This document shows, in pieces, positions 1 to 33,555 of a DNA stretch of 33,555 nt. Position 1 is the stretch's first letter; every line of letters starts with the position of its first letter. The position numbers were made by a program, and so were the translations under genes. Origin of the DNA: a virus. The stretch is from positions 1 to 33,555 of the IMG/VR virus record IMGVR_UViG_3300042261_000306. One strand, given 5' to 3'. The notes below the pieces were generated by a model. It saw only the letters and a list, made by a program, of their open reading frames with translations. It was not told the DNA's origin and did not search any database.

Positions 1-60
1 GGTCCAGTCACCGAGCGCTAATCAAGAGCCTGTAACGCGTGCATGATCAACCAACAGCCA

Positions 61-85
61 TCCGCCTAAGGGCGGAGATTATTTT
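61..85 (+). terminator. Rho-independent terminator, + strand
   Basis: A perfect 6-bp stem (TCCGCC, loop TAAG, GGCGGA, 61-76) is followed by a T-rich tract ending in TTTT. It would end transcription entering from the left of the window. The reverse strand has no T-run after the stem, so it works in one direction only. Confidence 0.6.
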
Positions 86-208
86 ACCACGTTTCCTGGG
101 GGTTCTGTCAAACTATTATTTTCGCATCTCTGCGGATCGCCCACAAACCAGCGTTTTCCGGGGTTTCCCGATCAGCGGATTTTTCCCTGAGTGTGATATT
201 TTTCAGGT

Positions 209-235
209 GGGGGTGTGCAGGGAGGGGGGAGGGGG
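209..235 (+). other. Putative G-quadruplex motif
   Basis: Four G-runs lie close together: G5 at 209-213, G3 at 220-222, G6 at 224-229 and G5 at 231-235, with loops of six, one and one bases. This fits the standard G-quadruplex pattern. It lies in non-coding, G-skewed DNA. Folding in vivo and function are unknown. Confidence 0.6.
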
Positions 236-408
236 TCTGTTTTGCCCCTGTTTCCAGTGTGCGGGCCGTTGGATTGGCGCCTGTGGCGCGTGTGCTTTCC
301 GTCAATGTTCATTGGCGGAATTGTGCGCCCGTAAGCAGGTCGGGCCGTCAGTGGGCAGGTCGTCGGGCCGCGCCGCTCGTCGGTGCGCTTGTCCTGGTGT
401 CGATGCGT

Positions 409-428
409 GGGGAGGGGTGGGGCGGGGG
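409..428 (+). other. Putative G-quadruplex motif with one-base loops
   Basis: Four G-runs of at least four bases are separated by single bases A, T and C (409-412, 414-417, 419-422, 424-428). Single-base loops with four tetrads are predicted to make a very stable parallel G-quadruplex. It is about 180 bp from the first motif and on the same strand. Function is unknown. Confidence 0.7.
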
Positions 429-757
429 TCGTGGACCGGCGAGCGATTGACGGCGGGGGTCTGGAGCGTGACGTAGCTACTTCGCCCCCGCACTGTCTTC
501 TTTACACACCCCCTACATTTGGTCCTGCCATTGGTCGCGTCGAGTCGGCGTCTGGAAAATGGTGCGGTGGTGGGTTTGTGGACAAGGGGGTTGGTGGTGA
601 AACCAAGGGTGTTGGTTGTGTGGTGGCGGCGGCGAGTATACCGGTGGCGTCACCGAAATGATGGCGGATTCGTTACGCCCCCCCAAGTGGACCGTAGGGC
701 GTGCGGGCGTTGGGAGGGCGGTGGGCTATATATTTTTGGAGGGTGGTGGCGGGCAAG

Positions 758-812
758 AAAAAACGCGCCCTTGATTGACATTCCCCTCCATAGGGCAAGC
801 GGTCAGGCGCGT
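758..812 (-). terminator. Candidate terminator of the leftward operon
   Basis: Read on the minus strand, ACGCGCC (812-806) and GGCGCGT (769-763) can form a 7-bp stem directly followed by six T residues (763-758). The loop of about 36 bases is long, though part of it can pair internally. The site is about 50 bp beyond the stop codon of the last leftward gene, the expected position. Confidence 0.4.
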
Positions 813-862
813 GTGTTGGGAGAAGGGTATCAGGAACGGTGCGCGGCGTCAAGGGGGGTGGT

Positions 863-1288
863 TCATGACTTCGCCCTCCACTCGCCGCACCAGTCGGTTT
901 CAAATCGGGTTTCGTAGTGTGCGTTGCGCCGACACCGAGACTGGATCATGTCCTGTTGCACGACTGGTTTGCCATCAAACCGGGAGATTGGAAGAACGTC
1001 AATCCAGTGCTGCGTTTGCCAGAACCGGCAGTTGCCGCACGACTCCTGCACTGGCGGCTTTGGCGCGTCCTGCTTGGGAGGAAGCGGGTTGGCGTCGTTC
1101 CATGCGCCAACAGCAGCAATTATGGAAGAATCAGCCGCATCCTTCCCAGAGTGCAGTGCGCTCATCCATGCAGTTTGGTTTCCGCACGTACATTGTACCT
1201 TTACCTGATTCCAGTATGCGGGCGGGTTGCATCGCGCGCCTACCGACACAGCGCCGATCTTGCACCTTACGCAAGGGTTGAGATTCAT
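863..1288 (-). CDS. Cys-rich Lar-like restriction-alleviation protein (two zinc-binding modules)
   Basis: The protein has 141 residues and two Cys modules. The first (residues 6-60) has C6-x2-C9, C20, C33-x-C35 and then an AWNDAN motif. This is the layout of Lar-type restriction-alleviation proteins, in which a small zinc ribbon ends in a W-N signature. The second (residues 84-135) has C84-x2-C87-RFW, C119 and DWCGEW, a pattern seen in small phage zinc-binding proteins. The start is supported by AAAGGA upstream of the ATG. It is the last gene of a leftward operon led by a serine recombinase, 12 bp after the stop of the preceding small gene. Known Lar proteins modulate type I restriction. A counter-defence role here is inferred, because the family match is by motif only and the fused second module is unusual. 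Confidence 0.75.
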   Translation of the reverse strand: MNLNPCVRCKIGAVSVGARCNPPAYWNQVKVQCTCGNQTAWMSALHSGKDAADSSIIAAVGAWNDANPLPPKQDAPKPPVQESCGNCRFWQTQHWIDVLPISRFDGKPVVQQDMIQSRCRRNAHYETRFETDWCGEWRAKS

Positions 1289-1300
1289 TTGCGTTCCTTT

Positions 1301-1405
1301 CTACGGGTTGCGTTTCGGCGGTTCGGTGAGAAGGATGAAAACGGCGACGCACAGGCACAGGATGGTGAAAAACTGCACAAGCGCGGGTTCTGCGGAGTGA
1401 ATCAT
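1301..1405 (-). CDS. 34-residue single-span membrane protein
   Basis: The protein is a short N-terminus, one hydrophobic segment (about residues 8-27, rich in L, V, F, I and C) and a basic PPKRNP tail. The start is fixed by a strong AAGGAGG (1411-1417 on the reverse strand) five bases before the ATG, and by an ATGA overlap with the stop of the upstream gene, which implies translational coupling. A longer reading from 1489 has no comparable site. The function is not recognised. Position and size would suit a superinfection-exclusion peptide, a holin-like peptide or a regulator of its membrane neighbour. No lysis enzyme is encoded nearby to favour a lysis role. Confidence 0.6.
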   Translation of the reverse strand: MIHSAEPALVQFFTILCLCVAVFILLTEPPKRNP

Positions 1406-1584
1406 CGCTTCCTCCTTGGCATGTAAAGCCTTTTGGCGAACATCCAGTCGTGCATTGTTCGGCATCCTTGGCGTCCCTCGAACAACCAAACCACGGCGAA
1501 TATCCAGCAGATTGCCGGTGCCAGCAGAAGGCAGGCAATCGCTTCCATGACGCTTTTCGGCGGGCGACCTTCGATGTACTCCAT
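1402..1584 (-). CDS. 60-residue single-span membrane protein
   Basis: The protein has one hydrophobic segment (about residues 14-36, including IACLLLAPAICWIFAVVW) and a strongly basic C-terminus ending MPRRKR, which suggests a cytoplasmic C-terminal tail. A good TAGGAGG lies just before the ATG and overlaps the stop region of the upstream recombinase gene. The stop codon overlaps the start of the 34-residue membrane protein by four bases. The pair therefore looks like a translationally coupled two-peptide membrane unit. The function is not recognised. Confidence 0.65.
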   Translation of the reverse strand: MEYIEGRPPKSVMEAIACLLLAPAICWIFAVVWLFEGRQGCRTMHDWMFAKRLYMPRRKR

Positions 1585-1592
1585 TGAGCCTC

Positions 1593-2321
1593 CTACCTAG
1601 TTGCCGAGCGTTCGATGATGTCGGAAATCGTTTGCAGCGAGAACGGGCGACCGCACCGCGCCATGAATCCGTTGTCGTTCAGGCGCGTGCGGATACCGGC
1701 CAGTGTTATGCCCTTTGCGCGAAGTGCGGCGATGAACATGCAAATGGTCTGCTCGCCAAGGTCCGGCACAAGGGAGTCGTCGATCAGCTTGCCGGTGCGC
1801 GGTCCCTCGGCGTGCCGCTTGGTGGATACCAGCGTCCATCCATAGGGCGGTTCCTTGGAGCCAACCTTGCGATGCTGCGCGATTTTGTGCTGTAGGGCCA
1901 TCTTGGTACGTGCGGAGATTTGATCGCGCTCTAGTTCGGCAAGCGCGGCAAAGACACGGTAGATCATGCGGCCAACCGGGGAAGTGGTGTCGATTTGCTC
2001 CGAGAGGGAAACGAACTGGCACTCCTTTTTGTCTAGGACGCTTGCGAGTTCAATGGCATCCCGCGTCGAGCGCGTCAGGCGGGACAGCGAGTACACCACC
2101 AGCGCGTCACCCTTGCGGACGGCTGCAAGTGCCTCCTGAAGCGCGGGGCGGTTGTCTGCGCGGCCACCAGACAGGCCGGGGTCAACAAACACCAGCACGT
2201 CGTCGGGCGCGATGTCGTGCAGCGCGGCCCATGCGCGTGCCTTGGACTCCTGCGCTTCGAGGGAAACGCCTTTGACGACCTGAGATTCGGATGATACCCT
2301 TATATAACAAATTGCTCGCAT
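1593..2321 (-). CDS. Serine recombinase (resolvase domain plus short recombinase domain)
   Basis: The 242-residue protein starts with the catalytic domain of serine recombinases. The motif YIRVSSESQ places the nucleophile at Ser10. SLSRLTRSTRD (about residues 78-88) carries conserved arginines, and the LAELERDQISARTK region marks the long helix at the end of the domain. Residues about 155-238 match the Recombinase domain of larger family members: PPYGW, spaced helices, GITLAGIRTRLNDNGF and a terminal SLQTISDIIERS. There is no Cys-rich zinc ribbon or coiled coil after it, so it is much shorter than classic large phage integrases. The ATG is preceded by AAAGGG. It leads the leftward operon and faces an AT-rich divergent control region whose repeat also lies inside codons 5-7, which suggests self-regulation. 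Integrase, invertase and resolvase roles are all possible. Confidence 0.9.
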   Translation of the reverse strand: MRAICYIRVSSESQVVKGVSLEAQESKARAWAALHDIAPDDVLVFVDPGLSGGRADNRPALQEALAAVRKGDALVVYSLSRLTRSTRDAIELASVLDKKECQFVSLSEQIDTTSPVGRMIYRVFAALAELERDQISARTKMALQHKIAQHRKVGSKEPPYGWTLVSTKRHAEGPRTGKLIDDSLVPDLGEQTICMFIAALRAKGITLAGIRTRLNDNGFMARCGRPFSLQTISDIIERSATR

Positions 2322-2444
2322 TTTGGCCCTTTCTGCTGTGACAAAGGCAATATAACATTTTGCGTGGTGCTATACAACAAAGAAAAGTGCATGGTGAAAG
2401 ATTTATTATACAACCCATGTTGACATGCGCACGCCAATGTTATA
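2301..2444. repeat. TATAYAACA repeat cluster in the divergent control region
   Basis: Four direct copies of TATA(C)AACA lie at 2303-2309, 2351-2357, 2371-2379 and 2407-2414 (the last lacks the final A). An inverted copy, AATGTTATA at 2436-2444, is an exact 9-bp inverted match to TATAACATT at 2351-2359. The first copy is inside the recombinase gene. The surrounding DNA is clearly AT-rich against a GC-rich background. They look like operator sites for a regulator or the recombinase. Confidence 0.5.
2349..2410 (-). promoter_or_regulatory. Candidate promoter(s) for the recombinase operon
   Basis: On the minus strand a perfect TATAAT (2410-2405) and a TATATT (2354-2349) lie about 85 and 30 bases upstream of the recombinase ATG. 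Neither has a convincing -35 box at 17 bp; the second has a weak TTGTAT. The region is AT-rich and holds the operator-like repeats, so a regulated promoter is likely but its exact position is not settled. Confidence 0.35.
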
Positions 2445-2446
2445 GA
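2420..2446 (+). promoter_or_regulatory. Candidate sigma70-type promoter for the rightward genes
   Basis: A perfect TTGACA (2420-2425) is followed by TATAGA (2441-2446) at 15 bp, or by TAGAGT (2443-2448) at 17 bp. The first rightward gene starts 25 bp downstream. The -10 element overlaps the inverted TGTTATA repeat, so a protein bound there would block this promoter. Confidence 0.45.
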
Positions 2447-2472
2447 GTAGCGGCGTCAAGGGGGATCAGGCT

Positions 2473-2715
2473 ATGAATTGTTTGCGGTGTTCACCGAAGC
2501 GCGTTGCGGCAGGCAATCCGGCGCGTGAGGCGTCGTGTAGGTCGCTTTGCCCATCGTGCAACTCTGTCGTTCGCCGGCAGATCGCGGAAGGCAAGACGAC
2601 CTGGGACGCGGAAATTGCGGCGGGTCGGTGCGCTGCGGCGCGGGTACATGTTCCCAACAAGTGTCAGGTGCCGGCAACGGCGAAAACAGCAAACCAAACA
2701 GGAGAGCAGGCATGA
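2473..2715 (+). CDS. 80-residue Cys-rich protein, possible zinc binding
   Basis: This is the first rightward gene after the divergent control region. C3-x2-C6 near the N-terminus and C26-x2-C29, with C22 nearby, could bind one zinc ion as a small treble-clef or ribbon fold. The remainder is basic and Ala-rich. The start is preceded by a GGGGGAT stretch, and the stop overlaps the next start as ATGA, which supports both genes. No family is recognised. As the first gene of the unit it could be a small DNA-binding regulator, but that is inference from position. Confidence 0.6.
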   Translation: MNCLRCSPKRVAAGNPAREASCRSLCPSCNSVVRRQIAEGKTTWDAEIAAGRCAAARVHVPNKCQVPATAKTANQTGEQA

Positions 2716-2957
2716 GCGAACAGAACACGGCGGGTACGGCGGATGCAGGGGTGGCGAAGGCGAAGAACAAGCGTGGCGACACAATCCCGCGCTGGCAGGT
2801 TGTCGTTGCCGGGAACGAAATCACGAACATCCTGCCCGACAAGTACAAGTCGCCGGAATCCGCGCTCCGCGCCATCGAGTCCAAGAAGATCGAGAACGCC
2901 ATCGGTCTGTTCCGTCCGCTGGCGGTCGAGGCCAAGGTCACGGCGCGTCTGGTGTAG
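2712..2957 (+). CDS. 81-residue hypothetical protein
   Basis: The start at 2712 is chosen because it overlaps the previous stop (ATGA) and has AGGAGAG upstream. The longer frame from 2547 would run through most of the preceding gene. The N-terminus (MSEQNTAGTADAG) is low complexity, followed by a compact alpha/beta-like stretch with WQVVVAGNEITNILPDKYKSPESALRAIESKKI. The next gene follows after 13 bp. No family is recognised. Small proteins of this kind are common in the early or DNA-processing region of phages. Confidence 0.65.
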   Translation: MSEQNTAGTADAGVAKAKNKRGDTIPRWQVVVAGNEITNILPDKYKSPESALRAIESKKIENAIGLFRPLAVEAKVTARLV

Positions 2958-2970
2958 GAGGGGCGGCGCG

Positions 2971-3111
2971 ATGAGCAACCAGTTCAGGGCGTCAGGCAAC
3001 GACACGGCGGCACGCAAGCGCGATCAGAAAAAGTGGGATGCGTGTCCGCTGTGGAAGAAGTGCGGCAAGGCGGCAAACAAGAAGGGCGGGAAGTCAAATG
3101 GGGTACGATAG
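2971..3111 (+). CDS. 46-residue basic protein
   Basis: A short gene with AGGAGGGG (2956-2963) before the ATG. The product is very basic, with many Lys and Arg residues, and has DACPLWKKC with two Cys six residues apart. It overlaps the start of the SSB-like gene by 14 bases. A nucleic-acid-binding role would fit its charge and position, but no family is recognised. Confidence 0.5.
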   Translation: MSNQFRASGNDTAARKRDQKKWDACPLWKKCGKAANKKGGKSNGVR

Positions 3112-4577: not shown

Positions 4578-5116
4578 AGAGTAGGCGTCCTACTGAGTGG
4601 TATTCGCTGCTGCACACCCACGCGCTGATCGCGCAGATCGACCGCGCCATGGGTGATGCACAGGGAGCCGGTTTGCCGGACGTTATCACAACCCTCATGG
4701 AGTGCCGCGAGTTTGCCAGCCGGATTCAGAACACACCGGCACTCATGCTGTTTCGCGGCGTGGTGTCGCACAAGCACCTGAGCCTGAAGCACGAGTACCA
4801 CCACTGGGTCAACGTGCGGGCGTGGAGAACCAGGATCGGCGAGAAAGGCACGCTTGAAGGGTACATGGGCGACCCCATGCTTGTGTGCTTCAGCGAGCGG
4901 CACAAAGACTTTGCGGAGACGATAGCATACAACGACTTCATCGAGGTTGACGGGGAGATGTACCACTTCACCAAGCGTGACAAGGTGACGGACAAAGTGA
5001 TATGTGTTGTTCCGTACATGAATGTGCGCAATGCCGAACTGATACGGAGAGGGGAAGCGGTTGACTCAATCAACCCTTACGAACGCCATGCCGAACCAGT
5101 CAAAACAACCGCATAA
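4574..5116 (+). CDS. 180-residue hypothetical protein
   Basis: Translation is probably coupled to the upstream gene through the ATGA overlap. The protein is mixed alpha/beta without obvious catalytic motifs. It has a His-rich stretch in the middle (residues about 65-80, HKHLSLKHEYHHW) and a beta-rich second half. Its last 56 bases overlap the terminase gene, whose TTG start lies inside it. No family is recognised. The location suggests a role in packaging or its regulation, but nothing in the sequence proves this. Confidence 0.65.
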   Translation: MKSRRPTEWYSLLHTHALIAQIDRAMGDAQGAGLPDVITTLMECREFASRIQNTPALMLFRGVVSHKHLSLKHEYHHWVNVRAWRTRIGEKGTLEGYMGDPMLVCFSERHKDFAETIAYNDFIEVDGEMYHFTKRDKVTDKVICVVPYMNVRNAELIRRGEAVDSINPYERHAEPVKTTA

Positions 5117-6728
5117 GGTCATAACGCCGAAAACTTACACGCCGGACGGGGCAACCCTCGTGGCGTTTCTCAAGTCCCGAGCCAAGTCGCGCATGATTCG
5201 CGGCCCGCGTGGTTCCGGCAAGTCAACGTGCATCGTGTGGGCAATCTGGCTAACCATGACCACCATGCGCCCGCTGAAGGGCACGAAGATTCGCAGCAGC
5301 CGATGGGCGTTTGTCGCGGCAACATACCCGCGCATCCAAAGCACCGCGCTCAAGGAATGGATGTACTGGTTTGGCGCGTTCACCGAAGTCAAGCAGGGTG
5401 TGCAGACCATCGCCACAATCAACGTCGAACTGGAAGACGGTACATCGGTTGACGCGCAGATTCTATTCACCGCCGCCGATGATCTGCAAAGCGCGGGCAA
5501 GTTCAAGTCCACGCAGTTGACCGGCGCGTGGCTGGTGGAAGCCGCAGAAATACCGGATGATTCGGTCTACAAGATGCTCTACATGTCGGTTGGACGCTGG
5601 CCGGGTGACGCCGACGGCGGCGCGTCTTGGGCGGGGATCGTGTCCGATACCAACTCCATGCCTCGCGGTCACTGGTGGCAGCGGTACGAGGACGAAATCA
5701 GGCCGTCCGACATGGAGTTCTTCAATCAGCCGCCGGCACTGCTGGACGCCTACCCGTTCGACCCCGCGAATCCAGTCTACATTCCCAACATGGGGCAGGA
5801 CAAGCGGTGGGGGCCGGCAGAGAACATCAAACACTGTCGCGGCGGGTTCAACTACTACATGGACGCGCTGAAGACCTACTCGCGGGAGTGGATTCAGGTC
5901 TTTATCCAGAACAAGTACGGGCGGCTGTCTGCTGACCGGCTGGTGTATCCAGAGTACCGAGACGACGAACACGCGACAACCAAGCTGTTCCCCTATCGCG
6001 GCATCCCGCTGCGTCTCGGGTTCGACTGGGGGCTGACTCCCTCGTGCATCATCTGCCAGCTTGACTCCTACGGGGTCTGGCGGTGCTTGGAAGAGGTTTG
6101 CGGGAACAGCATTGGTGCGCGTAACTTCGCACGGCAAGACCTGGCCCCGGTGATCCTGAAGCGGTATGCGGGCATCCCCATCATTGCGGCTGGCGATCCT
6201 GCTGGCGGTCAGCGGGACCAGTCCAATGAAAGCACATGCTTCAAGGAGTTGGAAGCAATCGGCATCACGGTTCACAAGGCTCCAAGTAACGCGCTGATCC
6301 CCCGGCGCGAGGCGGTGGCGGCGTACCTGTCGCAGAGCAAGAAGTTCCTGCTGGACGTGGATCGGTGTCCAAAATTGCACGATGGGTTCAAGGGCGCGTA
6401 TCATCTTGACGAAAAAGGCGTACCGGATGACGTACCAGAGGGGCATATTCACGACGCTTTGCAAGCCATCCTTTTATATAGCAGCGTCAACCCAAGCGCA
6501 CAGGCGCGGGACTGGGAAGGCAACGGCTGTTTCTCGTCCGAAGTGATGAAGGCGATGGGTTTCAACCTGCCGGGGTCACAACGGCTTGACGGGTACGGGC
6601 AGACGGATGCCGGCGGCAACGTGCCGGTTGACACAAGCGGAAACTCGGTTGAGAACACGCCGCCCGCCGACCATGTTCCATGTGGAACGTCGCCGGACGA
6701 TGGCATGGCGTGGGCGGTGGAGGGATAG
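5061..6728 (+). CDS. terL: Terminase large subunit (packaging ATPase and nuclease)
   Basis: The 555-residue protein powers DNA packaging and cuts the concatemer. The ATPase domain has Walker A GPRGSGKST (48-56), a motor-region segment SRWAFVAATYPRIQ (about 83-96), and a Walker B-type strand GAWLVEAAEI (155-164) with E160 in the catalytic position. The RNase H-like nuclease domain shows the expected acidic residues: D322 in GFDWG, D379 in AAGDPAG and D465 in GHIHDALQA. The C-terminal 70 residues are a Gly/Asn-rich tail. The start is taken as TTG at 5061, because GGAGAGGGG lies just upstream. The first ATG at 5088 has no such site, so a TTG start with a 56-bp overlap of the previous gene is favoured. 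Confidence 0.95.
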   Translation: MTQSTLTNAMPNQSKQPHKVITPKTYTPDGATLVAFLKSRAKSRMIRGPRGSGKSTCIVWAIWLTMTTMRPLKGTKIRSSRWAFVAATYPRIQSTALKEWMYWFGAFTEVKQGVQTIATINVELEDGTSVDAQILFTAADDLQSAGKFKSTQLTGAWLVEAAEIPDDSVYKMLYMSVGRWPGDADGGASWAGIVSDTNSMPRGHWWQRYEDEIRPSDMEFFNQPPALLDAYPFDPANPVYIPNMGQDKRWGPAENIKHCRGGFNYYMDALKTYSREWIQVFIQNKYGRLSADRLVYPEYRDDEHATTKLFPYRGIPLRLGFDWGLTPSCIICQLDSYGVWRCLEEVCGNSIGARNFARQDLAPVILKRYAGIPIIAAGDPAGGQRDQSNESTCFKELEAIGITVHKAPSNALIPRREAVAAYLSQSKKFLLDVDRCPKLHDGFKGAYHLDEKGVPDDVPEGHIHDALQAILLYSSVNPSAQARDWEGNGCFSSEVMKAMGFNLPGSQRLDGYGQTDAGGNVPVDTSGNSVENTPPADHVPCGTSPDDGMAWAVEG

Positions 6729-6731
6729 CGG

Positions 6732-6911
6732 ATGAAATGCCCAAATTGTAAGAAAGGCTACCTGCACCGCAGAAATGGCGAACCGATGATCCTTGACGAC
6801 AAACCTGTAGATGTGCGCACGCGGTTCTGCAAAAAGTGTGGTTGGCTGTTCAAGACGCACGAAACCGTCGTTGCGTCCTTTCGTGCCAACAAATCGCCTG
6901 CGCGAAAATAG
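6732..6911 (+). CDS. 59-residue zinc ribbon protein
   Basis: The product starts MKCPNCKKGYL and has a second pair FCKKCGWLF, a classic C-x2-C ... C-x2-C zinc ribbon (C3, C6, C38, C41). It starts four bases after the terminase stop, with only a weak GGGATAGCGG before the ATG. It lies exactly between large terminase and portal, the two parts of the packaging motor, and is followed by a regulatory-looking spacer. A role as a packaging accessory or small transcription regulator is possible. The sequence supports only zinc binding. Confidence 0.65.
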   Translation: MKCPNCKKGYLHRRNGEPMILDDKPVDVRTRFCKKCGWLFKTHETVVASFRANKSPARK

Positions 6912-6951
6912 TTACCATATAGTAATCTAGGCCACTGTACGAAATCGTACA
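6912..6951. promoter_or_regulatory. Two dyad elements between terminase and portal modules
   Basis: TTACCATATAGTAA (6912-6925) is a near-palindrome with one mismatched pair. TGTACGAAATCGTACA (6936-6951) has perfect 7-bp arms around AA. Both lie in a 104-bp AT-rich spacer, unlike the tight packing elsewhere. They look like binding sites for a dimeric regulator controlling the head genes. A TATAGT at 6918-6923 could be a -10 box, but I see no clear -35 box. Confidence 0.5.
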
Positions 6952-6972
6952 TTCTGCCGCATGATTCTCGCA

Positions 6973-7002
6973 AAGGGGCACCAGCGTCGTTTGACGCCCC
7001 TT
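6973..7002 (+). other. Stem-loop in the leader of the portal gene
   Basis: AAGGGGC (6973-6979) can pair with GCCCCTT (6996-7002), or the inner GCGTC (6984-6988) with GACGC (6993-6997). The two stems overlap and exclude each other. There is no T-run, so it is not a standard terminator. The structure ends about 13 bp before the portal start and could affect its translation or messenger stability. Confidence 0.4.
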
Positions 7003-7015
7003 AACGCGAGGGCAG

Positions 7016-9100
7016 ATGGACATAGGCAAGACAGATTTGGCCGTTGCGAATCGCGCTTCTGCGAATGAATCCCCTGCTTCCGGTGTTGCCGAGTCGCAAA
7101 GCACAGCCGCGCTGGATTCCGCGCCCGCATCGTCGGACGCAAACTCCATCACGCTGTTCAACATCCAGACCAAAGAGCAGTACGACGGCGTGATTCGCCA
7201 ACTCTGCCACGGCAGCGGCGTTGCTCCGTGGGTCACTGGCGCATGGGACCGCAACCGCATTTATCGCATGACCCAGGGCATCGACCAGAAGATGCTTGAC
7301 GCGATGAACCGGCGCGAAGGCATCTACAGCGGCAAGCAGATTGAGCAAATCCGCGCCATGAAGTCGTCCAGCGTGTACCCGCTGATGATCGACAAGATGT
7401 GCCGGCGTGCAGAAGCCTACGTCGCGGACGCCTTTTCTTCGGTCGAGCGGCCCGACAAGCTGCGCATCTCTGGCGAAATCGAACTGACAAAGGACCAGCG
7501 GCGGGAGATTCTGCGCCAACTCGAAGGCCAGGTGCGTCAGGCCGTGCGTGCGTCGGGCGGGGCCGTGCTTCCTCCTGAGCGGGTCGAGTCCATGTTGCTT
7601 GCCATCGAGGACAACGTGCGCCGGAAGCTGATGCAGCGTGCCAAACTCGCCGCAGGGTCGATGGAGAACGTGATTTACGGGCAGTTGGACGAAGGCGGAT
7701 GGCGCGATGCGTTCGACGGGCTTGTTTCGGACGCAATCACACTCAAGGGCGGAGTCATCTATGGCCCGTATGCGACTGTTGACAACGAGATTCACTTCTT
7801 TCGCGGCAAGAACGGGAAAACCGGCCCGGTGGCTCGGAAGGTGTACCGCTATCGGTGGGATCGGCGTAGTCCGTTCGACATCTTCCCGGCTGCTGGGTGC
7901 CGCACGCTCAACGAAGGCGACCTTGTGGACCGCGTTCGGTGGACCCCCGAGAACCTGTTAGCGCAGGCGGGTCAACCCGGATGGGACAAGGATGCCATCA
8001 ATTCCGTTGTCACCAAGTACCACGAGCAGGGCTTCGCCTACTTCACCGGATTCGACTCTGCACGCGGGTATGCGGAAGAGATTGGCAACGTCGTGCAGCG
8101 GCAGTACGGGTTCATCGAGTGCCTGCGTTTCTACGGGCATGTGCGCGGGGACCGGCTGGAGATGACCGGCGTACCCGGCGACACGCGGCAGATCATGTCG
8201 AACGCGCTCTACCACGTCTGCTCCGTGGTGTGCGGGTCTGACGTGCTGTACGTGTCCGTGCTGGACCCCGACATTGACTTCCGGCCATACCTTTTCGAGT
8301 CCTACGCGCCGAAGTGCGGCGGTTTGTGGGGCAAGGGGTTTGGCGAACTGGCGGCAAGTGAAGACGCCATGCAAGCGGCGGCGGCTCGCGGGACGGTCAA
8401 CAACGCCGGATTCGTCACCACGCCGACCCGCACCATCTACAGCGAGCAGTTGGTTGGCGGCGTACCGCTGGGAGCGGCGTACCCCGGACAGACGTACATC
8501 GCCAAGTTCATCCCCGGCGCGACCCAGAAGCCGGTTGAGTACCACCAGATTCCGAACAGCATGAAGACGCTGGCGGAACTGCGCGAGGACGCCGAAAAGT
8601 ACGCGCATGAGATGGTTGGGGTGCCGCTGACTGACCTTGGATCGGGCGAAACCTCTTCCGTCGGGCGCACGGCTACCGGATTTGCGGAGATTGAGAAGAA
8701 CGCAAGCCGGTCCATGGCGTTCTTCCTGTACCGCCTCGAAAAGAACGTCTGGCGTCCGAACATTGATCGGCTGAACAAGCTGAACATCCTGTACCACGAG
8801 GACGAAAGCATCAAGACCGAAGCGGAAGTGATCCCGCAGGGCGTCTTTGCCGAGTTGGACCGCCGCGCCAATGCCAGCCGCAAGATGGAAGTGCTGAACG
8901 CGGTGCGTGGCGACCCGATTGTAACCCCGCGCAAGCGTGCGGCCCTGATTCAGTCGATTGGAGAGGACGCCGAGATACCGTCTGACGCGCTTCCGAGCGA
9001 AGATGACATTGCCAAGGCCGAGGCGGAAGAGGCGCAGCAGAAGGCGATGGCGGCGCAGGCGCAGCAGGCCCAGTCACAACCCATGGAAGGTGCTGCATGA
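7016..9100 (+). CDS. Portal protein
   Basis: The 694-residue protein is called as portal from its length, its position directly after the terminase module and before a scaffold-like and a capsid gene, and its content. The N-terminus is disordered. Residues about 50-330 form a mixed domain with RNRIYRMTQGIDQKMLDA and VYRYRWDRRSPFDIFPAAG. A later segment reads SMKTLAELREDAEKYAHEMVGVPLTDLGSGETSSVGRTATGF, like the long helix and clip of large podovirus portals. The C-terminus is a Gln/Ala-rich helix. The portal forms the dodecameric DNA channel at one capsid vertex. The start has GAGGG close upstream. The stop overlaps the next start (ATGATGA). Confidence 0.8.
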   Translation: MDIGKTDLAVANRASANESPASGVAESQSTAALDSAPASSDANSITLFNIQTKEQYDGVIRQLCHGSGVAPWVTGAWDRNRIYRMTQGIDQKMLDAMNRREGIYSGKQIEQIRAMKSSSVYPLMIDKMCRRAEAYVADAFSSVERPDKLRISGEIELTKDQRREILRQLEGQVRQAVRASGGAVLPPERVESMLLAIEDNVRRKLMQRAKLAAGSMENVIYGQLDEGGWRDAFDGLVSDAITLKGGVIYGPYATVDNEIHFFRGKNGKTGPVARKVYRYRWDRRSPFDIFPAAGCRTLNEGDLVDRVRWTPENLLAQAGQPGWDKDAINSVVTKYHEQGFAYFTGFDSARGYAEEIGNVVQRQYGFIECLRFYGHVRGDRLEMTGVPGDTRQIMSNALYHVCSVVCGSDVLYVSVLDPDIDFRPYLFESYAPKCGGLWGKGFGELAASEDAMQAAAARGTVNNAGFVTTPTRTIYSEQLVGGVPLGAAYPGQTYIAKFIPGATQKPVEYHQIPNSMKTLAELREDAEKYAHEMVGVPLTDLGSGETSSVGRTATGFAEIEKNASRSMAFFLYRLEKNVWRPNIDRLNKLNILYHEDESIKTEAEVIPQGVFAELDRRANASRKMEVLNAVRGDPIVTPRKRAALIQSIGEDAEIPSDALPSEDDIAKAEAEEAQQKAMAAQAQQAQSQPMEGAA

Positions 9101-10613: not shown

Positions 10614-10678
10614 GCCGCGCAGCGCGCAGAAGCGAAGGAACGGGGTCCGGCACCTACCCGCAGGAAGGATTGGTTATC

Positions 10679-11665
10679 ATGGCTCGTCAATTCCCACAGG
10701 CAGCGGGCGCGCCCATTTATGGGCCGACGGTCATCCCGCCGCGTTTCTACTCGGACTTCCTCAAGAAGTACTACCGGACCACGGTCCTCAAGTCGATCTG
10801 CAACACCGAGTTCGACAAGGACATCACGGGCTACGGCGACATTCTGAATGTCGCGCAGCTTCCCGACATGGAGTTGTTCGACTACTACGAGGGGATGGCC
10901 CTTCCCACGCAGTCCAACTTCTTCAAGCCGGACGTGCAACTGAAGATCGACCAGGCCAAGGGCTGGCGCGTGCCGATGAACCCCGTGTTCAACAAGCAGA
11001 CCATGCACAAGGACTTCTGGACCCGCATGGCTGACGACGGCGCGAAAAAGATCAACATTGCCATCGACCGCACGGTTCTCGCCGGGTTTGCGTCGCTGGT
11101 CAACGCCTCCAATGCCGGCGCGACTGCCGGTGTGGTCACTGGGTCATGGGACCTGGGAACCGTTGGCGCGGCCAAGACAATCTCGCCGGACGACTGCGTG
11201 CCGTTGCTGTTGGCAATGGAACAGGTGCTGTTCGAGCAGGACATCATGGCGGACCCCGATGGCGGCAGCGATGGCGTCAACGAGGACGAAATGTATGCCG
11301 TGGTGCCGGGATGGTTCAAGAGCTATCTCATGCAGGCCAAGGTGTTGCAGGCGTGGGTCTCTGGCGATGCCAAGAGCCCCATCCGCACCAACTCGGTCGG
11401 GCATGTGGGTGGCATTGTCATCCACGTCTCCAACAACCTGCCGTACACGACCGCGACCAAGACTTCCCCGATCCTCTTCGGTGTGAAGAAGGCCACGAGC
11501 TTCGCCCTGCAACTTCAGGTTGCCGAAACCAAGCCCGCCGCGACCGATTACGGCCAGATCATGCAGGCTCTCACGGTGTGGGGCTGGAACGTCATGATCG
11601 ACAAAGGCGTGGGCGTTGCCTACGTCAAGCCGGGCACGATCACCGCGCCTGCCGTTGAGGGCTAA
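10679..11665 (+). CDS. Major capsid protein
   Basis: The 328-residue protein follows the scaffold-like gene, the normal place for the major head protein. The ATG at 10679 has AGGAAGG upstream; an in-frame TTG nine bases earlier would sit too close to that site. The sequence is consistent with a P22/N4-type HK97-fold subunit: an N-terminal arm, a long helix region around residues 110-150 (FWTRMADDGAKKINIAIDRTVLAGFAS), VVPGWFKSYLMQAKVLQAW, and C-terminal strands (GGIVIHVSNNLPY, PILFGVKKATSFALQLQVAE, WGWNVMIDKGVGVAYVKPG). Phrases such as a self-contained beta segment followed by GVKKATSFALQLQ are common in phage major capsid proteins. I see no sign of a cleaved prohead protease segment. Confidence 0.85.
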   Translation: MARQFPQAAGAPIYGPTVIPPRFYSDFLKKYYRTTVLKSICNTEFDKDITGYGDILNVAQLPDMELFDYYEGMALPTQSNFFKPDVQLKIDQAKGWRVPMNPVFNKQTMHKDFWTRMADDGAKKINIAIDRTVLAGFASLVNASNAGATAGVVTGSWDLGTVGAAKTISPDDCVPLLLAMEQVLFEQDIMADPDGGSDGVNEDEMYAVVPGWFKSYLMQAKVLQAWVSGDAKSPIRTNSVGHVGGIVIHVSNNLPYTTATKTSPILFGVKKATSFALQLQVAETKPAATDYGQIMQALTVWGWNVMIDKGVGVAYVKPGTITAPAVEG

Positions 11666-14244: not shown

Positions 14245-14604
14245 ATGGCAATCACCTTTCAGAGCGTCATTGACAACGTGCGCCAAGACATTCCGGTGTG
14301 CGACGCGACGGATGAGGACATTCGCCGGTACTGTCACCGCGCATGGCACGAGATGTTCCACACCTATCCGTCTCTGCGGCGTGCTTTCAACACGACCACG
14401 GGGGCGGTGACGGAGATTCCCGAAGACGCGCCCGAAGACGCCACCGAGTTCCCTGACGTATTGGATGGCCGGCGCATCCCGATTGAGGCCAGCGTGCGGG
14501 CATCCATCGTGTTCAAGTCGAAGATGGACGATGCGCAGGCCAAGCGGTACAAGATCGAGATTGAGACGTTCACAAACGAACAGGGCATCGACAACCGCGT
14601 GTAG
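14245..14604 (+). CDS. Second adaptor- or neck-like protein
   Basis: The 119-residue protein has an N-terminal pattern typical of phage neck and adaptor proteins: TFQSVIDNVRQDIP, then a short acidic loop and DEDIRRYCHRAWHEMFHTYPSLRRAF, followed by a hinge and a C-terminal helix rich in Lys/Glu. AGGAGG sits eight bp before the ATG. With the preceding protein it probably forms the connector between portal and tail. The exact division of labour is unknown. Confidence 0.55.
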   Translation: MAITFQSVIDNVRQDIPVCDATDEDIRRYCHRAWHEMFHTYPSLRRAFNTTTGAVTEIPEDAPEDATEFPDVLDGRRIPIEASVRASIVFKSKMDDAQAKRYKIEIETFTNEQGIDNRV

Positions 14605-22943: not shown

Positions 22944-25900
22944 ATGGACGACTCCACACTGGACCCCTTTGCAGCGTCAGAAAACGCCGCACCAGACCCC
23001 GGCACCTTCGCGGCGGTGACTGGCTTGGCTGGCGGTGCGCAGGGCGAATTGGCGGCACAGGCGGCGAACAACATGCCGGTTGCCGCGCGTCCACCCGCGC
23101 AGCAGACTTCGCCCACGACTGCGCCCGCGCCGGAAAAACCAGCCGAGAATCCCGTCGCGCAGGATGATCCCTTCGCAGCGGAAGAATCCTTCGCAGGGCA
23201 GGCGGTCGGCGTGACCAAAAGCCCGACGGACGCGATGGAGACTGCGGCGGCAAGTCGGAGCATGGCAACACGGGATACGGAACTGAATCCGCCACCGCCA
23301 GAACTGACCGGCGTTTCCAAGAGCCAGAAGGCGGCGTGGAAGCAGGGCGAGAAGGTCAAGGCAATCGGCGGATGGGAAGTCGCAGGAAGGACGCTGGCAG
23401 AGGAAACGGGTCCGTTTGCGGCAGGCGCGGCGGCTGGAATGGCGTCCTTTGGGCCGGCAGCAGAGGTGGGTCTATTCCAGGGTGGTCCGTATTGCGCACT
23501 GGCGACCGGCACGGCGGTCAGTACAATCAATGCTATCGGCGCGGCTACCCTTGTGGCACACGCGCAAAAACGACTGCAAAACCTCGTCAACTCTCCCGAG
23601 TACATGGAAGAGGACCGGCGAATCAGGCAGCTGGCCGCGCAAGAGCATCCGCAGGCCGCTGGCGCAGCCGCAATGATTCCCGGCATGGCGATGTTGTTGA
23701 CGCCGCAGGGAGAGGCGCAGCTTACACGGAAACTTTTGCAGCGCATGATTGACGGCGGCAAGGCTCGTTCTGCGCAGTCCGTGTTAAGGGCGCGTGCGAT
23801 CATCGAAGGCGGCGGCGTGCTGAAAAGCGCAACCGGATTCGGCAGGATGTCGGGCGCGGGTGCGGGTATCGCCAATGAAGAGGCGGGGGAGCCGGTTGCC
23901 AGCATTGGCGATGAAACCATCAAGGGTTTGGCGATGGGCGGACCCTTGCACTTCATGCCGATGGCGACAAAGGTGCTTGGCGACTCCCTTGCGGCCAAGG
24001 CGCCAAAGGGAATGACCGCCGCGCTTGCCTTGGCGTTTTCCAGCGAAGCATACGATGCGACATTCCGGGGCAAGCCGTTTGATGCGCAAAAGGTTTTGGA
24101 TGAAGCCAAGAGCAATGTCCCGGCATTTGTGCTGATGGAGGCGTTTCCCAAGGTGCTTTCCATGATGGCGCGGAAGCCAACCGAATCGCGGCCCGTTTCG
24201 GCCATCGACGACCCCTTCGCGCAGCCCGAGAACGCGCCAATTCAGAAACCCGGCGCGGTGCAACTTGTCGGAAATCACACCGACGCCACGCGGGAAGTTG
24301 CTGACTCCGCGCAGGCCGCAATCGACAAGCGCGGACTGAAGGTGCCGGTGCAGGTCCATGCGGACAGCGAGAGCCTGGCGCGGGCAATCGGTGCGCCGGT
24401 CACGATGAAGGCAGACAACGCGACAATCACTTCGCCGGACAATTCGGACAGCGCGAAACTCAAGGTGTCGGCATACCACGGCACGCCGCACACGTTTGAA
24501 CCGGAACCTGGTTCTCCGTTGGGCAAGGTGAAAAAGGAGAAAGTCGGCTCGGGCGAAGGCGCGGCGGCATACGGATGGGGCGTGCTGTATGCGGCTGAAA
24601 ACAAGGGCGTTGCGGACACGTACACAAAAGCCGGAGACCCCGCGCAGCGGTTCAAGGTTCTCGCGCACGAACTTGCCAAAGCGCAAGGAAGGTCAAACAC
24701 GGTTGAGGTGGATGGTCAGGTGTTGAGCGACTATCAGATGGCGCGCCGCCTTCAAGACAAGGATGCCGAGTTCATTGCCAAACTTCCCGAGAACATCCGT
24801 AACAAGATTGAACAAGCGGAGCGGGGCAACCTTTATCACATCGAAGTCAACGCAGAACCCGAGGACATGCTGGATTGGGACAAGCCGTTGAGTGAGCAGA
24901 GCGAGGGCGTGCGGAAAGCGCTTGGCAAGCATCTGGTCAGGTCAGAATACAACGTCAATGGAAAAGGGCTTTCCAGTTTTACAGGAAGCGCGGTGCTTGG
25001 CGTCAAACTTCAATCTGAATTACGGAAGACGGATGGAGACGTAATGACAGCACTTCGCAATCTGCGAAGCATAGAGACAGGCACGGACTTGTGGAGGAGC
25101 CAAGTTGACCATGCGCTGTCGCTCGACTGGTCGGGTCTTAGAAAGTCGGAGCAAGAAAAACCTTGGAGCGGTCAGGGTCTGTACAGGGAACTAGCGGATG
25201 CGCAAACTCCAAAAGCCGCCAGCGAATACCTAGCGTCCCTCGGCATCAAGGGCATCCGGTACGCGGATCAGGGGAGCCGTGGCGCTCCGGTTGTCCGTCC
25301 AGTGACCAGCAGCCGCACGGGTGACACGCTTTGGCAGGTAGATGTTGGCGGCGGGACGCAGCCGATGGAGTTCGCCAGCAAAGCGGAAGCCGACGCCAAA
25401 GCCGCAGAGATGGCGAATAGCAAGACCTACAACTACGTCATCTTCGACGAGAACGACATCCGCGTGATCGGGCGCAATGGAGAAGTGTTGCCGCCGTCAG
25501 AGGCCATGAATGTCGAACCGCGCTTCAAGAAGTCCGCGCCAGACTCCATCGCAGCCGCAGCGAATATCACAAAGGGCGAAGTCCACATCGACTCATCCGC
25601 ACCCGAGTATCGCAACGCGGACGGCACGGTGAATCACAAGGCGGTCGAAGCGGCGGTCGTGCATGAGGCAATCGGGCACGTCGGCATAGAGCGTGCATTG
25701 GGAAAAGAAAAGTTTTCCCAAATGGCGGTATCGCTTGCATCCTCGTTGTCTCGGAATGAGCGTCGGGCGATTGGCGAACAGTGGGGAATGAACTACACCA
25801 AACCGGAAGATGCCAGCCTGACCCGCGAGCAGCGCAAGGAAAAGCGGGACAAGTACATTCTGGAAAATATCGGCGCAGAACACTTGGCGACCATCGCGGA

Positions 25901-28900
25901 GAACGCGCAACTTGGCGGCGTATGGCGGTCGATCATGGACAAGGTTGTTGTGGCGTACAACCGGACGCTGCGTGCGATGGGTGCGCCACGGGACTTCACC
26001 GACGCGGAAGTGCGGGACATTCTGCGCAAGGGTGAGCGTGCCGCACGGAAAGGCGATTTTGGTGCAGCAGAGTTCACAACCGGTGCGGATATGCGTGCGA
26101 AGGCGGGGCAGCAGGCGGGCGTTACACCGGAGCGCGACGCCCGCTTCCGCGAGTTGACGAAGACATGGCCGGGGGGCGGGCAGGCGCAACAAACCGGAAT
26201 GGAAGGCGCACTGCGGGCGCGATGGACCGCCGACGCAATGCAACACGCTGATTATCTGATTGCAAACGGAGAATCTGTTGGTGTCGGATCGTTGAACAAG
26301 CGCGTACTCGACCTCGTGTCTAAACTTCGATCCATCGGGATAGACTTCGATGCACCATACTTGAGCGCAAGCAAGGGACTGCCGAAGTTCCGCGCCGAAG
26401 CGATTGAGTTGGCGAGCAAAGCCAAGGATGCCATTCGGAGCAAGGCGCAACCAGCACAACCCCCCGCCTCCATCCCCGCCGCGTGGGCCGCGTGGAAGTC
26501 CGCTCACCCCGCCGAGTACGCCGAGCTTGAGAAGATGCGGGCGGAGGTGCTGAAGGAGCAGGCTCCGCAACCTAGGCAATCGTGGCGCAACGCCTACGAA
26601 ATGGGGAAGCGAGCCAAAGCAGACGGCGTGCGATCAGAGCGCGAGTTCTTCGAGGCAATGACCACAACGGAACTTGATTCGCTTCCATCGGAATCTCCAG
26701 GATGGAATGCGTTTTTCAGGGCCGGTTTCTACGACAAGGATATGCCTGAATATGTCACCGGATGGCGCTACGGCAAGATACCAGAATCAGACCAATCCAC
26801 CAACTTCCGCGAGCAAATAGCGGAACGCGGCGTGTCGCTGATGCGGCTGGACGGCGAAGAATCATCGTCTGGTGCAAAGGTATATGAGATGTTCAACCGC
26901 AAAGGTAACATGCTTCACGTTGGCGGGTGGTATGCCGGGCGCGGGACAGATGGAGAACCGCTTATTGTTGGCGCGAAGGAAATCAAATCCGCCGAAGTCG
27001 CCCCCGACGACACGGGCCGCATACCGCCGCCGAGCGAGTGGGGGAATAGTGGCACGCCTGATATACGAGACGTGTCCAAAGGGGTACATGCAAGCATGGA
27101 GTTGCCGAATGAGGGTGCTGAGGGCAAGAAACTGCCTCAGCCTGGCTATGAGAAACCGGGCGAGGATGCGGCGGCGGACGCCCGCTTCCGCGAGTTGACG
27201 AAAACGTGGACGCCCGTGGGCGGTGATATTTTGCCGCATACTGCGGTGTCAAACACTCCCGGCACATGGCGATACATTGACTCATCCAAACAAAGAGTTG
27301 AGCAGCTCCAGTCATTGAATGTCAGCGCACTCCCAGTGACCAAAGGAAATCGCATATACGCCGAGACCGTTGACCGATACATTCGCAATCGCACGGACAA
27401 ACATCCGGTCGTGTTCCTCGACTCGAAAACCGGAAAGTATTTTGTGGACGACGGAAACCACAGAATCCAAGCAGCTAAAGCGCGAGGCGAGAAAACTGTA
27501 CTGGCGTGGGTGCGCAAAGGACTGACTGGCGGAATGCCAGACCCGCGCCTTGACGCAGCCCCTCCCGCCGACATCCGCTACAAGGCGGGTCTGACACCCG
27601 AGCAGATACGCCAGCGCGAAGAGTTTGGAAAGAAGCGCGACGCGGAAGTTGCCTTGGCAAGTCAGCAGCGGCAGTCAAGAATTGCCGAACTGACGCAGCG
27701 CATTGCAGACGAAAACAAGTCCCTTCAGCGCGACCCAGTGACCGATAAGCCCGTTGGATTGACGCCTGAGCAGGTTGCGTTGCGGCAGGAATACAAATCT
27801 CTCATGCAGAAAGAGATGGAGTATGTCTTGGCGCAAGAGTCTGTAGGGAGTGGCTACGGCGTTGGGCAGACTCCCGAGCAGGCGGCGGAACAGGCGCGTT
27901 TGCGTCAGGAGCGCGACCGGCAGACGGCCACAATGGACGTTCAGAACCAGGCGGCGCGACAGGCGGCAGCCGGTGGACCGCCGCAGCCCGCACAGCCGGT
28001 CGCAGAGAAGAAAACGCGCAACCGCCAAGGTCCGCGACAGGGTTGGGAAGAACGTGCGCCCGCGATGCGCCAGGAGCAGAACGTGCGCTTCATGGCGGGG
28101 AAGAAGCGCGTCGATGGAGAGGAACAACCCGACCTACTTCCCGCAGACCAGCAGCCGTTCAATCTTGCGCAGGAACAGTCCGCGCTCGACCCTCAGGCAA
28201 TCGACCGACAGATGGCCGACCGCAAGCGCAAAGCGGATCAGGACCGCCAGCAGCAGGAGTTTCGGTTTAAGGCGGGAAAGAAGAAGGATAAGAGCGGATG
28301 GGCGGTCAACAAGATTGTGCTGCAAAGACTCTACGACCGCGAAAACAAGAAACCTCCAGAGCAGCGGCGCACCGACAAGGAGTTGCGCGAACTGGCCTTG
28401 CGCCCACCCGTTGACCGAGACACGCAGGTTGGCATCGACCCCGAGCGGATGCCGACGTTGAGTGCCATGATTGAGAACGGATGGTCGATTCGCAACCGGA
28501 AGAACGAAGGCGGCGGCGAATACGACGAAGCCGGAACGTGGAGAGAGTTTGGCCGTTTTGCGCAGGAGATTTTCGGTGGCGAACACGGCGATGCGGCAGA
28601 CATTGTTGCAGACAACCTTGGCCTGACAACATCTGAGATGTGGCGCAGGTTGAGGAACGAAGTCAAGAACTACAAGTCGAAGGCTGCAATGCGCACGGCG
28701 GAAGAGGATCGCATCGAATCCGATCAGGTCCGGGCAGAAGCCAAGTTGCAAGGTCCGCAGGAAGTCTCCGCATACGACTTGGAACAGGGCGATTTGGTCA
28801 AACTCAATGGCCGCTGGCACGAGTTCAGCACGGACGAAGTGAACCAGACCCCCGTGCTGGAACGTTCCACAGGCGAAGTCGTCCCCATGCACGTCAGCGC

Positions 28901-31900
28901 ACCAATGCAGGTAGACGGCGTGGTGCGCAAGGGAGACGTGATTTACGACTTCGAGAAGAAGCGCATGGACGCGGACAGGGCGCAGCTCCGCAAGATCACG
29001 GATCAGGGCGACTTGGTGCCGGCGGATGAGGCGAACCAAGAGAACGCAAACCTTGCGAGACTTGCGCCCGATGAAGCGGAGATTCTCAAGGCTTTCCGCG
29101 CCGGCAAGAAGGCGCAGACCCCCGCAGAGCAGCCCGCCGCGAAGGTTGGCGCGGGTGAGCCTCCGACGGTCGCGCAGGAGCCCGCCAAGCCAGCACTCAC
29201 GCAGCATCTTGTAAACGGCCTTTGGGAGAACAGAGACGCGGACGGTAACCCAGTTGGAGAACTGTACCAGACGCGGGAGGATGCTCAGAAGGCTGCTGGC
29301 ACGACGGTCGGTTTGCAAGAGCCACCAAAACAAACCAATGAGCCTATCCGCGACGATGACGGGAACATTGGACTCACGTTTTCTTCTGACGACAAGGCGC
29401 GTGCGGAAAACGACTTGCCTGAGCGCGACCAGTCCGAAAGACGAAGCAACCGCGAACTGATTGAAACAGCGGCGGATAGCGTGTCAAAAGACCCGCAGTT
29501 GCCGCAGCGGATCATTGACGAATTGAAGGAGACAGGACGCAAGCAGATCACGCGAGAAGAAAGTGGCGTCCTGTTGTTGGAAAAGGCTCGTCGTCAGCGT
29601 AATATGGACGAGGCGCGTGATGCGATGAATGACCTGTCAGAAGAAGCTGCTGAAAACGTGCTTGCGATTCATCGGTGGGAAAAGGCAAAGAACGCTTATC
29701 GTGAAGTATCCGATGTTCATGCGCCTGCCGTTTCAGAGGCGGCAAGGCAGTTGCAGGCACAGCAAGTCAAGCTGGACCCTGACTTGAACTATGTGGAGCA
29801 GGAGAAGTCTCTTGAGGTTGAGCTTGGACGCAAACCAACAGACGATGAAATTGCGGAACGTCACTCTCTTGTAGACTCCCTTCGCAAGGAAATCGCAGCA
29901 CTGAGAGCAAAAGAATCCAGACACGCGGCGATCCTTGCCAAGCGCACAGCTGACGCACGTTTGAGCGAACTGGTTTCTGTGGAGAATGGTGGTGCGCCGG
30001 CACAGGAATACATTGCTCCAGAGATTCTTGAGCGTGCGCGGAAAATCGTCGAGAAACTGGACAAGGCTGCTGATGCTGCTGAAAAAGACTTCATGGCGAA
30101 GTGGCAGACGTTCACGCGTGGCGGCGCAAACGACGTGTCCAAGGCCGTAACGCTACCAGCAGAAATGCTGAAACCGTTGGCACTACGCGGTGCTTCGCTG
30201 TTAGCGCACGGAGCGTTGGACACAGCAGAGTTCACGGCGAAGATGGTAGAGCGATACGGGCCGCAAGTGGTGGCATACATCGGTCAGATTCGCAAGGAGT
30301 CTGACAGGGTTTTACGCGGTGAGGCTGGAGGAGACGCGAAGGTATTGGACGTGATTGGCAAAACGGACGCGAAACCGCTATCGCTCGAAGTGCTGAAAGG
30401 AAAGGCAAAGGCACTGGCCGACAATGGCACTGGAACGGATTTGCTTGGAAACATCATTGACCAGTTGGCGCGGTATCACATTCAATCCGAAGGAATTAAG
30501 ACAATAGACTCCATGACGGATGCCTTGCGCAAGGACTTGTCGGATGCCTACCCACAAATCACAGGTGTGCAGATTCACAATGCTTGGTCCAGGTACGGGA
30601 AATCCACATTGCCAGACCAAGCGGAAACGGAGGTTGCTTTCCGCGACCTCAAGGCGCAGGCATTGAAACTTTCTCAGTTGAACGCGTTGGCAACGGAGTT
30701 GCGCGTAAAGAGAACAGGTGCGCAGCGCGATCCTCCAAGCGATGAAGTTCGTCGTCTGCAACAGAAACTTCACCAGAAGATGAAGGAGGCTGGTGTGTCG
30801 GTTGGAAACACGGCAGAAGAAGAACTGCAATCTATCCAAGCAACCATCGCCAAGCGTCTTTCGCATCAGTTGGCCGACATGCTTCATTATTTGGACACTG
30901 GGGAGAATGTGGAGAAAACCCCCGGAGTTCAATACAGCGAAGCAAACGAGGCTGTCCGAGCAATCAAAGAGCGCGTGCGTGCGGTCATTAACTCCATCAC
31001 CCCCACAGACCCTCAAAAGGTCACCGCAGCAAAGATTGAACGAGCCATTACGCAGTACGAACGGCTTGCGTCGGAAGCGTATCGAATGATGGGCGAAGGC
31101 GTTACGGAACGTCCGAGTGCGGAAGCGCTGCCAGAGACGCCGGAACTCAAATCGGCGCGTGACGCCAAGAATGAGGCATACGCCAAACTCAAAGCGTTGG
31201 CAGAGGCGTCAAAACCGCAGACCAGCAAAGAAGCCCAGCAAGCCATGAGCGACCTGTTGGCGGCTGAAAAGTCATTGGACCGTCTTGAGGGCGGCTCGGC
31301 CAAGGAAAAGGTCGCACCTCGCTGGGAGACTCCGCGCACTTCTGAAACGGCACCCATTCTGGATGAACTGTACCGCGCATGGCAGTCCCTTGCGGAGAAG
31401 CGCGTTGAGAATGAGCGTGCGGAAAAGGACAGTCAAACGTCCAGGGCCATTGAAGCGGACATGAGGCGGGATAAGGCGACCATCGAACGGCTAGAACGCC
31501 AGATTGAGGATACCGCTGGAACGCCCCCGGAGCGGTCCCCGGAAGCGGATGCTGCCCGTGCGCAAAAGAAAGCGGCTGATGCGAAGGCTGCTGCTGACAA
31601 GGATGCGGCGTTGACTCCGGAGCAGCGAGAGTTGAAGCAGCGAATTGCGGACTTGCGTGATGTGCGCAAGACGGTTCAAAAACTTAACGATGCCACGCAG
31701 TCGGCGGAAGAACGGTTGCTGGCGTACAGGATTGCAGGAGCAAGAAAGCGTGCGGACGCGCTTGAGCAGAAGTTAAGTGTCGGAGACACGTCCAAGAAAG
31801 CAGCGGTTGCTCGCATCCGGTACGACACCGGAAAGTACGATCAAAAGTTGAACGAGATGCAGCGGGAGCTTGACGCTCAGATGGCACGAGCGAACACTGC

Positions 31901-33464: not shown

Positions 33465-33494
33465 TTGACTATGCAACATCAAATGTGCCATAAT
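33465..33494 (+). promoter_or_regulatory. Sigma70-type promoter for the gene at the right edge
   Basis: TTGACT (33465-33470), an 18-bp spacer and CATAAT (33489-33494) give five of six matches in each box. The site lies in the 68-bp gap after the giant gene, about 24 bp before the next start codon. It suggests that a new transcription unit begins here. Confidence 0.6.
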
Positions 33495-33517
33495 ACGGCG
33501 CGAAGGGAAGGACGCGA

Positions 33518-33555
33518 ATGAGCAAGCGAACGAGTCTTTGGCGGCGGATGATCGC
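33518..33555 (+). CDS. Start of a gene cut by the window edge
   Basis: The ATG at 33518 follows GGGAAGGA and a good promoter. Only the first 13 residues (MSKRTSLWRRMIA, the last from an incomplete codon) are in the window, beginning strongly basic before what may be a hydrophobic part. The gene cannot be identified. Confidence 0.55.
   Translation, partial: MSKRTSLWRRMI

Follow-up and report, generated by a model that had tools for sequence, protein, structure and literature searches.

The window analysed here, that is, the whole stretch of DNA, is a virus contig of 33,555 bases, truncated at both ends judging from its gene content. It carries genes for a large terminase, a head-tail adaptor and a major head protein (Table 1), and almost one third of it is taken up by one open frame of 3,501 amino acids (22944-33449), whose sole match in the part of the relative loci that was compared was weak (29% identity over 245 aligned positions, in locus L088). 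This frame contains the longest exact direct repeat in the window, of 26 nt (26136-26161 and 27177-27202). A promoter-like TTGACT...CATAAT in the final stretch (33465-33555) is followed by a new rightward start near 33519, so that the record is cut inside the next gene.

Near the left end, a leftward operon encodes a small serine recombinase and finishes with a CxxC-rich gene. The G-rich block studied here sits in a gene-free spacer, bounded on one side by the end of this operon and on the other by that of a putative rightward gene at the window's left edge. The AT-rich gap upstream of the recombinase gene (2300-2450) holds TATAACA three times, once inverted, and TATACAAC twice; these repeats are candidate recombinase-binding or operator sites.

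Table 1. Coordinates of genes and sequence features in the window
Feature	Position	Strand	Remarks
Gene-free spacer	22-862		bounded by the ends of a putative rightward gene (left edge) and the leftward recombinase operon
Hairpin, 6 bp, then GATTATTTTA (T-rich tail)	61-76	+	fair; possible terminator of the rightward gene ending at the left edge
Promoter-like TTGACA-19-TAAAAT	81-111	-	points left, out of the window
C-over-G bubble	132-509	-	second in block; third largest area in window
G-rich block	200-760	+	G 42%, T 24%, C 22%, A 12%
G-quadruplex motif 1	209-235	+	G runs 5, 3, 6, 5; loops 6, 1, 1
G-quadruplex motif 2	409-428	+	G runs 4, 4, 4, 5; three single-base loops
G-quadruplex motif 3	697-718	+	G3+, weaker; absent from the preliminary description
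C-over-G bubble	494-905	-	largest in window; overlaps end of leftward operon
Rut-like 78-nt stretches	554-631, 685-762, 188-265, 396-473, 790-867	-	RhoTermPredict-like rule
Weak interrupted stem, then TTTTTT	~763-820	-	possible intrinsic terminator of leftward operon
15-nt exact direct repeat, GCGGCGTCAAGGGGG	843-857 and 2450-2464		on either side of leftward recombinase module
Last gene of leftward operon, 141 aa	863-1288	-	CxxC-rich; without family match
Small serine recombinase, 242 aa	1593-2321	-	Resolvase PF00239
Large terminase	5061-6728
Head-tail adaptor	7016-9100
Major head protein	10670-11665

The spacer and its edges

With the window's confident genes as its training set, a codon model gave negative scores to every open reading frame of at least 30 aa that overlaps 22-862 and is not part of a neighbouring gene. 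For the leftward operon such a model is a weak guide, since the real-looking gene at 863-1288 scores only -0.01; with this reservation, the negative scores of every such frame in the block bear out the earlier statement that 200-760 holds no gene, and a coding gene there was rejected. A structured RNA was likewise rejected, because the block had no match to an Rfam family and neither strand was much more stable than its shuffled versions (z of folding energy -1.08 for + and -0.55 for -, 20 shuffles each).

Each of the three rightward frames at the left edge meets a stop by position 46. The preliminary description had placed the block between the terminators of neighbouring transcription units, which stands in part: the hairpin on the + strand is a fair candidate, but the stem on the - strand is weak, its folding energy being no better than that of shuffles (z -0.59), and a terminator scan of 1-3000 returned four sites against 3.8 expected by chance. 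The promoter-like pattern at 111-81 matched twice in the window, against 0.42 matches expected by chance. Because of this leftward site, leftward genes may exist past the left edge, and it speaks against a simple convergent layout. We also looked for GCTGGTGG and the looser GNTGGTGG, which we take to be Chi motifs. The former is absent from the block, with one copy per strand in the window; three copies of the latter lie in the block, out of six on the + strand, and seven are on the - strand, a signal too weak for Chi-like sites to be retained.

G-quadruplex motifs

With G3+ motifs defined as four runs of at least three G separated by loops of 1-7 bases, the whole window contains exactly three on the + strand, all within 209-718, and none on the - strand. 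The block thus has the sequence features for G-quadruplex formation, namely four runs of three or more G with short loops. Both strong motifs reported previously were recovered as described, including four runs of at least four G with single-base spacers at 409-428.

Of 5000 dinucleotide shuffles of 200-760, 1.0% contained at least three G3+ motifs, 2.5% a G4+ motif, and 0.08% four G4+ runs whose loops are all single bases. When the whole window was shuffled 500 times, the corresponding values were 12% for at least three G3+ motifs on the + strand, 0.8% for a G4+ motif and zero for its single-base-loop form. From these frequencies, the number of G3+ motifs is unexceptional for the window, and their clustering and the motif at 409-428 are beyond chance.

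The 25-nt G4Hunter peaks of the two strong motifs reach 2.64 and 2.76, on one strand and about 200 bases apart. Peaks of at least 2.6 occurred five times in 2.59 Mb of sequence from 208 loci of distant relatives, and in none of these loci did a pair of peaks at or above 2.4 share a strand within 1 kb. The only other peak in the window with a magnitude of at least 2 (-2.04) is at 26450-26485 on the - strand, inside the 3,501-residue gene. PQS density was close in the window (1.64 per kb) and the distant relatives (1.31 per kb), and scattered quadruplex motifs numbered 139, in 62 of 209 sequences (the distant relatives plus the window). The exact 409-428 motif had no occurrences in IMG/VR contigs.

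The C-rich strand

Read on the - strand, which is the sense in which the adjacent operon would be transcribed, the block is rich in C and poor in G. Within the per-strand listings of the six largest C-over-G bubbles, C-minus-G per 78 nt was highest at 494-905 (34) and 132-509 (32), the next value being 22. Under a RhoTermPredict-like rule (78 nt, C exceeding G, a C every 11-13 nt), 188-867 contains five of the ten top-ranking separate stretches of the - strand, the best of all being 554-631 with a C/G ratio of 6.67. Rut-like stretches by this rule occur at 14,572 window positions on the - strand, many of them weaker ones elsewhere; where that strand faces rightward genes it often has more C than G, hence the numerous weaker hits.

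In the 208 distant-relative loci, crude gene calls delimited 356 non-coding gaps that were 250 nt or longer, and none reached the skew of the block; the closest, in L109, had 33 against the block's 34. By a plain 500-base skew the block stands out less: with coding stretches counted in, five of 62 GC-matched loci contained a 500-base stretch that was at least as skewed.

Relatives

A terminase profile search found at least 80 viral loci, the best with 37% identity among the matches listed, and in genomes 80 loci (best 36%); an alignment of the recombinase pair gave 41 viral loci (best 51%). These counts leave out the window itself (L001) and treat contigs that overlap or nearly duplicate each other, such as L182-L184, as separate. 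The terminase, the capsid, the recombinase and the gene that ends the leftward operon were each used as queries, with no useful close relative among the matches listed. No listed gap of at least 250 nt in the 41 recombinase loci resembled the block; the highest G and C fractions among those gaps (0.39 and 0.40) both belonged to L203, which has 69% GC. Comparison of DNA with phage (50,697) and plasmid (72,556) records gave short chance matches only: blastn of the spacer with E up to 1 returned 19 short phage matches, none covering more than 5% of the query and the lowest E being 0.07, which were judged to be chance.

Interpretation of the block

We tentatively interpret the block, from its composition and position, as an untranslated trailer to the leftward recombinase operon that serves as a termination zone of the Rho-dependent type. 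Of the readings considered, this one best fits the observed position, strand and composition, with an unselected, compositionally biased spacer a close second. RNA polymerase running past the last gene, which ends at 863, would make a long C-rich, G-poor RNA free of ribosomes; Rho would load on this RNA and halt transcription before it reached sequence further left, with possible help from the weak stem and run of U near 763. The observed G-quadruplex motifs are on the + strand, the template of the putative trailer RNA, and may be mainly a by-product of its C-runs. Several points tell against such a trailer. At 42% C, any DNA is apt to pass the spacing rule, weaker rut-like stretches are common elsewhere on the - strand, the gap in L109 is nearly as skewed, the length far exceeds what a rut site needs, an intrinsic-type terminator may already sit at about 763, and the C-rich strand would coincide with the transcribed one by chance in one case out of two. 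That the host of the window phage has Rho is assumed.

It is quite possible, if somewhat doubtful, that a long non-coding gap simply accumulated strand-biased mutations until its + strand was rich in G and T, leaving quadruplex motifs that have no role. Strand-biased mutation can produce a G+T-rich, A-poor strand, and the block does have one strand high in G and T and low in A; searches for conserved elements, repeat arrays, structures and families found none in it, its G3+ count is unexceptional (12% of whole-window shuffles), and scattered motifs occur among the distant relatives too. Against such drift, the single-base-loop motif exceeds what composition yields, none of the 356 gaps of relatives is equally skewed, and the window's other longer gaps (2322-2472 and 6729-7015) lack the skew. 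Phages also seldom keep 800 gene-free bases. The two strong motifs on one strand, with G4Hunter peaks that are rare in relatives, would suit quadruplexes that act, either by stalling leftward RNA polymerase from the template strand or by folding in a rightward RNA and blocking it. We consider this unlikely: the operon's own RNA would not carry the G-rich strand, and PQS density is near that of the relatives.

The role proposed in the preliminary description, that of an origin of replication, a packaging site or a recombination site, appears very unlikely. A long gene-free stretch near a recombinase gene, with a short AT-rich tract at 727-737, is what might be expected of such a site, but the large terminase gene is about 4 kb away, the recombinase-site-like repeats at 2300-2450 fall outside the block, and similar DNA is absent from phage and plasmid records. 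Neither iterons nor an inverted-repeat array were present in 1-3000, and an iteron-type origin was rejected in view of the missing direct-repeat array. The origin, packaging and recombination readings are thus each without support.

The least probable reading is that the leftward recombinase module was inserted beside the start of the rightward operon, stranding its old leader as the block. The 15-nt repeat flanks the module, a repeat of 15 nt or longer arose in 0.8% of shuffles of 1-3000, and the copy at 2450-2464 coincides in part with where the ribosome site of the rightward gene at 2473 would be. The repeat was, however, sought after the fact, and a repeated ribosome-binding leader is an alternative possibility. 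Moreover, of 17 recombinase loci scanned among the 41, nine had an exact flanking repeat of 12-18 nt, its sequence being shared only by the near-duplicates L182 and L183; the other eight had none, two of them having short downstream flanks. A mobile-cassette reading of the repeat was accordingly judged weak, similar loci giving it no support.

To return to the Rho-type trailer, its transcription, the loading of Rho and termination are predicted steps. A more elaborate version seems very unlikely: an extreme, long Rho-loading trailer and template-strand quadruplexes would together form a two-part insulator of a temperate phage, separating the recombinase operon from a separately promoted leftward unit (111-81). 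For the window phage by itself the result is modest. Should the trailer function as suggested, the quadruplex motifs found in spacers of phages could frequently mirror C-rich, Rho-loading RNA encoded opposite them.

Comparison with known systems

The nearest phages by terminase, at about 27-34% identity, include Pelagibacter phage Hodr, Rhizobium phages, MEP301, Pmp11 and BcepC6B. Burkholderia phage BcepC6B, Pasteurella phage Pmp11 and Hodr, which have podovirus-like head and packaging modules, have terminases about 30-34% identical to that of the window, and in BcepC6B and Pmp11 the head-tail adaptor follows the terminase as it does here. These three phages share no DNA with the window, and its leftward recombinase module is not annotated in the regions of them that were viewed.

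Like the putative G-quadruplex sequences of dsDNA virus genomes (PMC8036883), those of the window are G4Hunter-positive with G3+ and G4+ motifs; unlike them, the window has two strong predicted motifs clustered in a single spacer. The score bins of that study may not be comparable with 25-nt peaks, the window motifs scoring 1.29 and 1.37 as merged regions.

The closest parallel is with rut sites and Rho-dependent terminators of the E. coli type. In the RhoTermPredict paper (PMC6407284), rut sites are described as C-rich, G-poor stretches with regularly spaced C, and a table for E. coli has C/G ratios of at least 3 in 37 of 4,494 validated predictions. The RNA expected from the window would share this C-rich, G-poor composition and regular spacing and, as in terminators of the Rho-dependent type, is predicted to follow an operon's last gene immediately and to be untranslated. 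Compared with E. coli-type rut sites, the trailer, with its putative Rho dependence, is longer and more skewed, with C/G up to 6.67.
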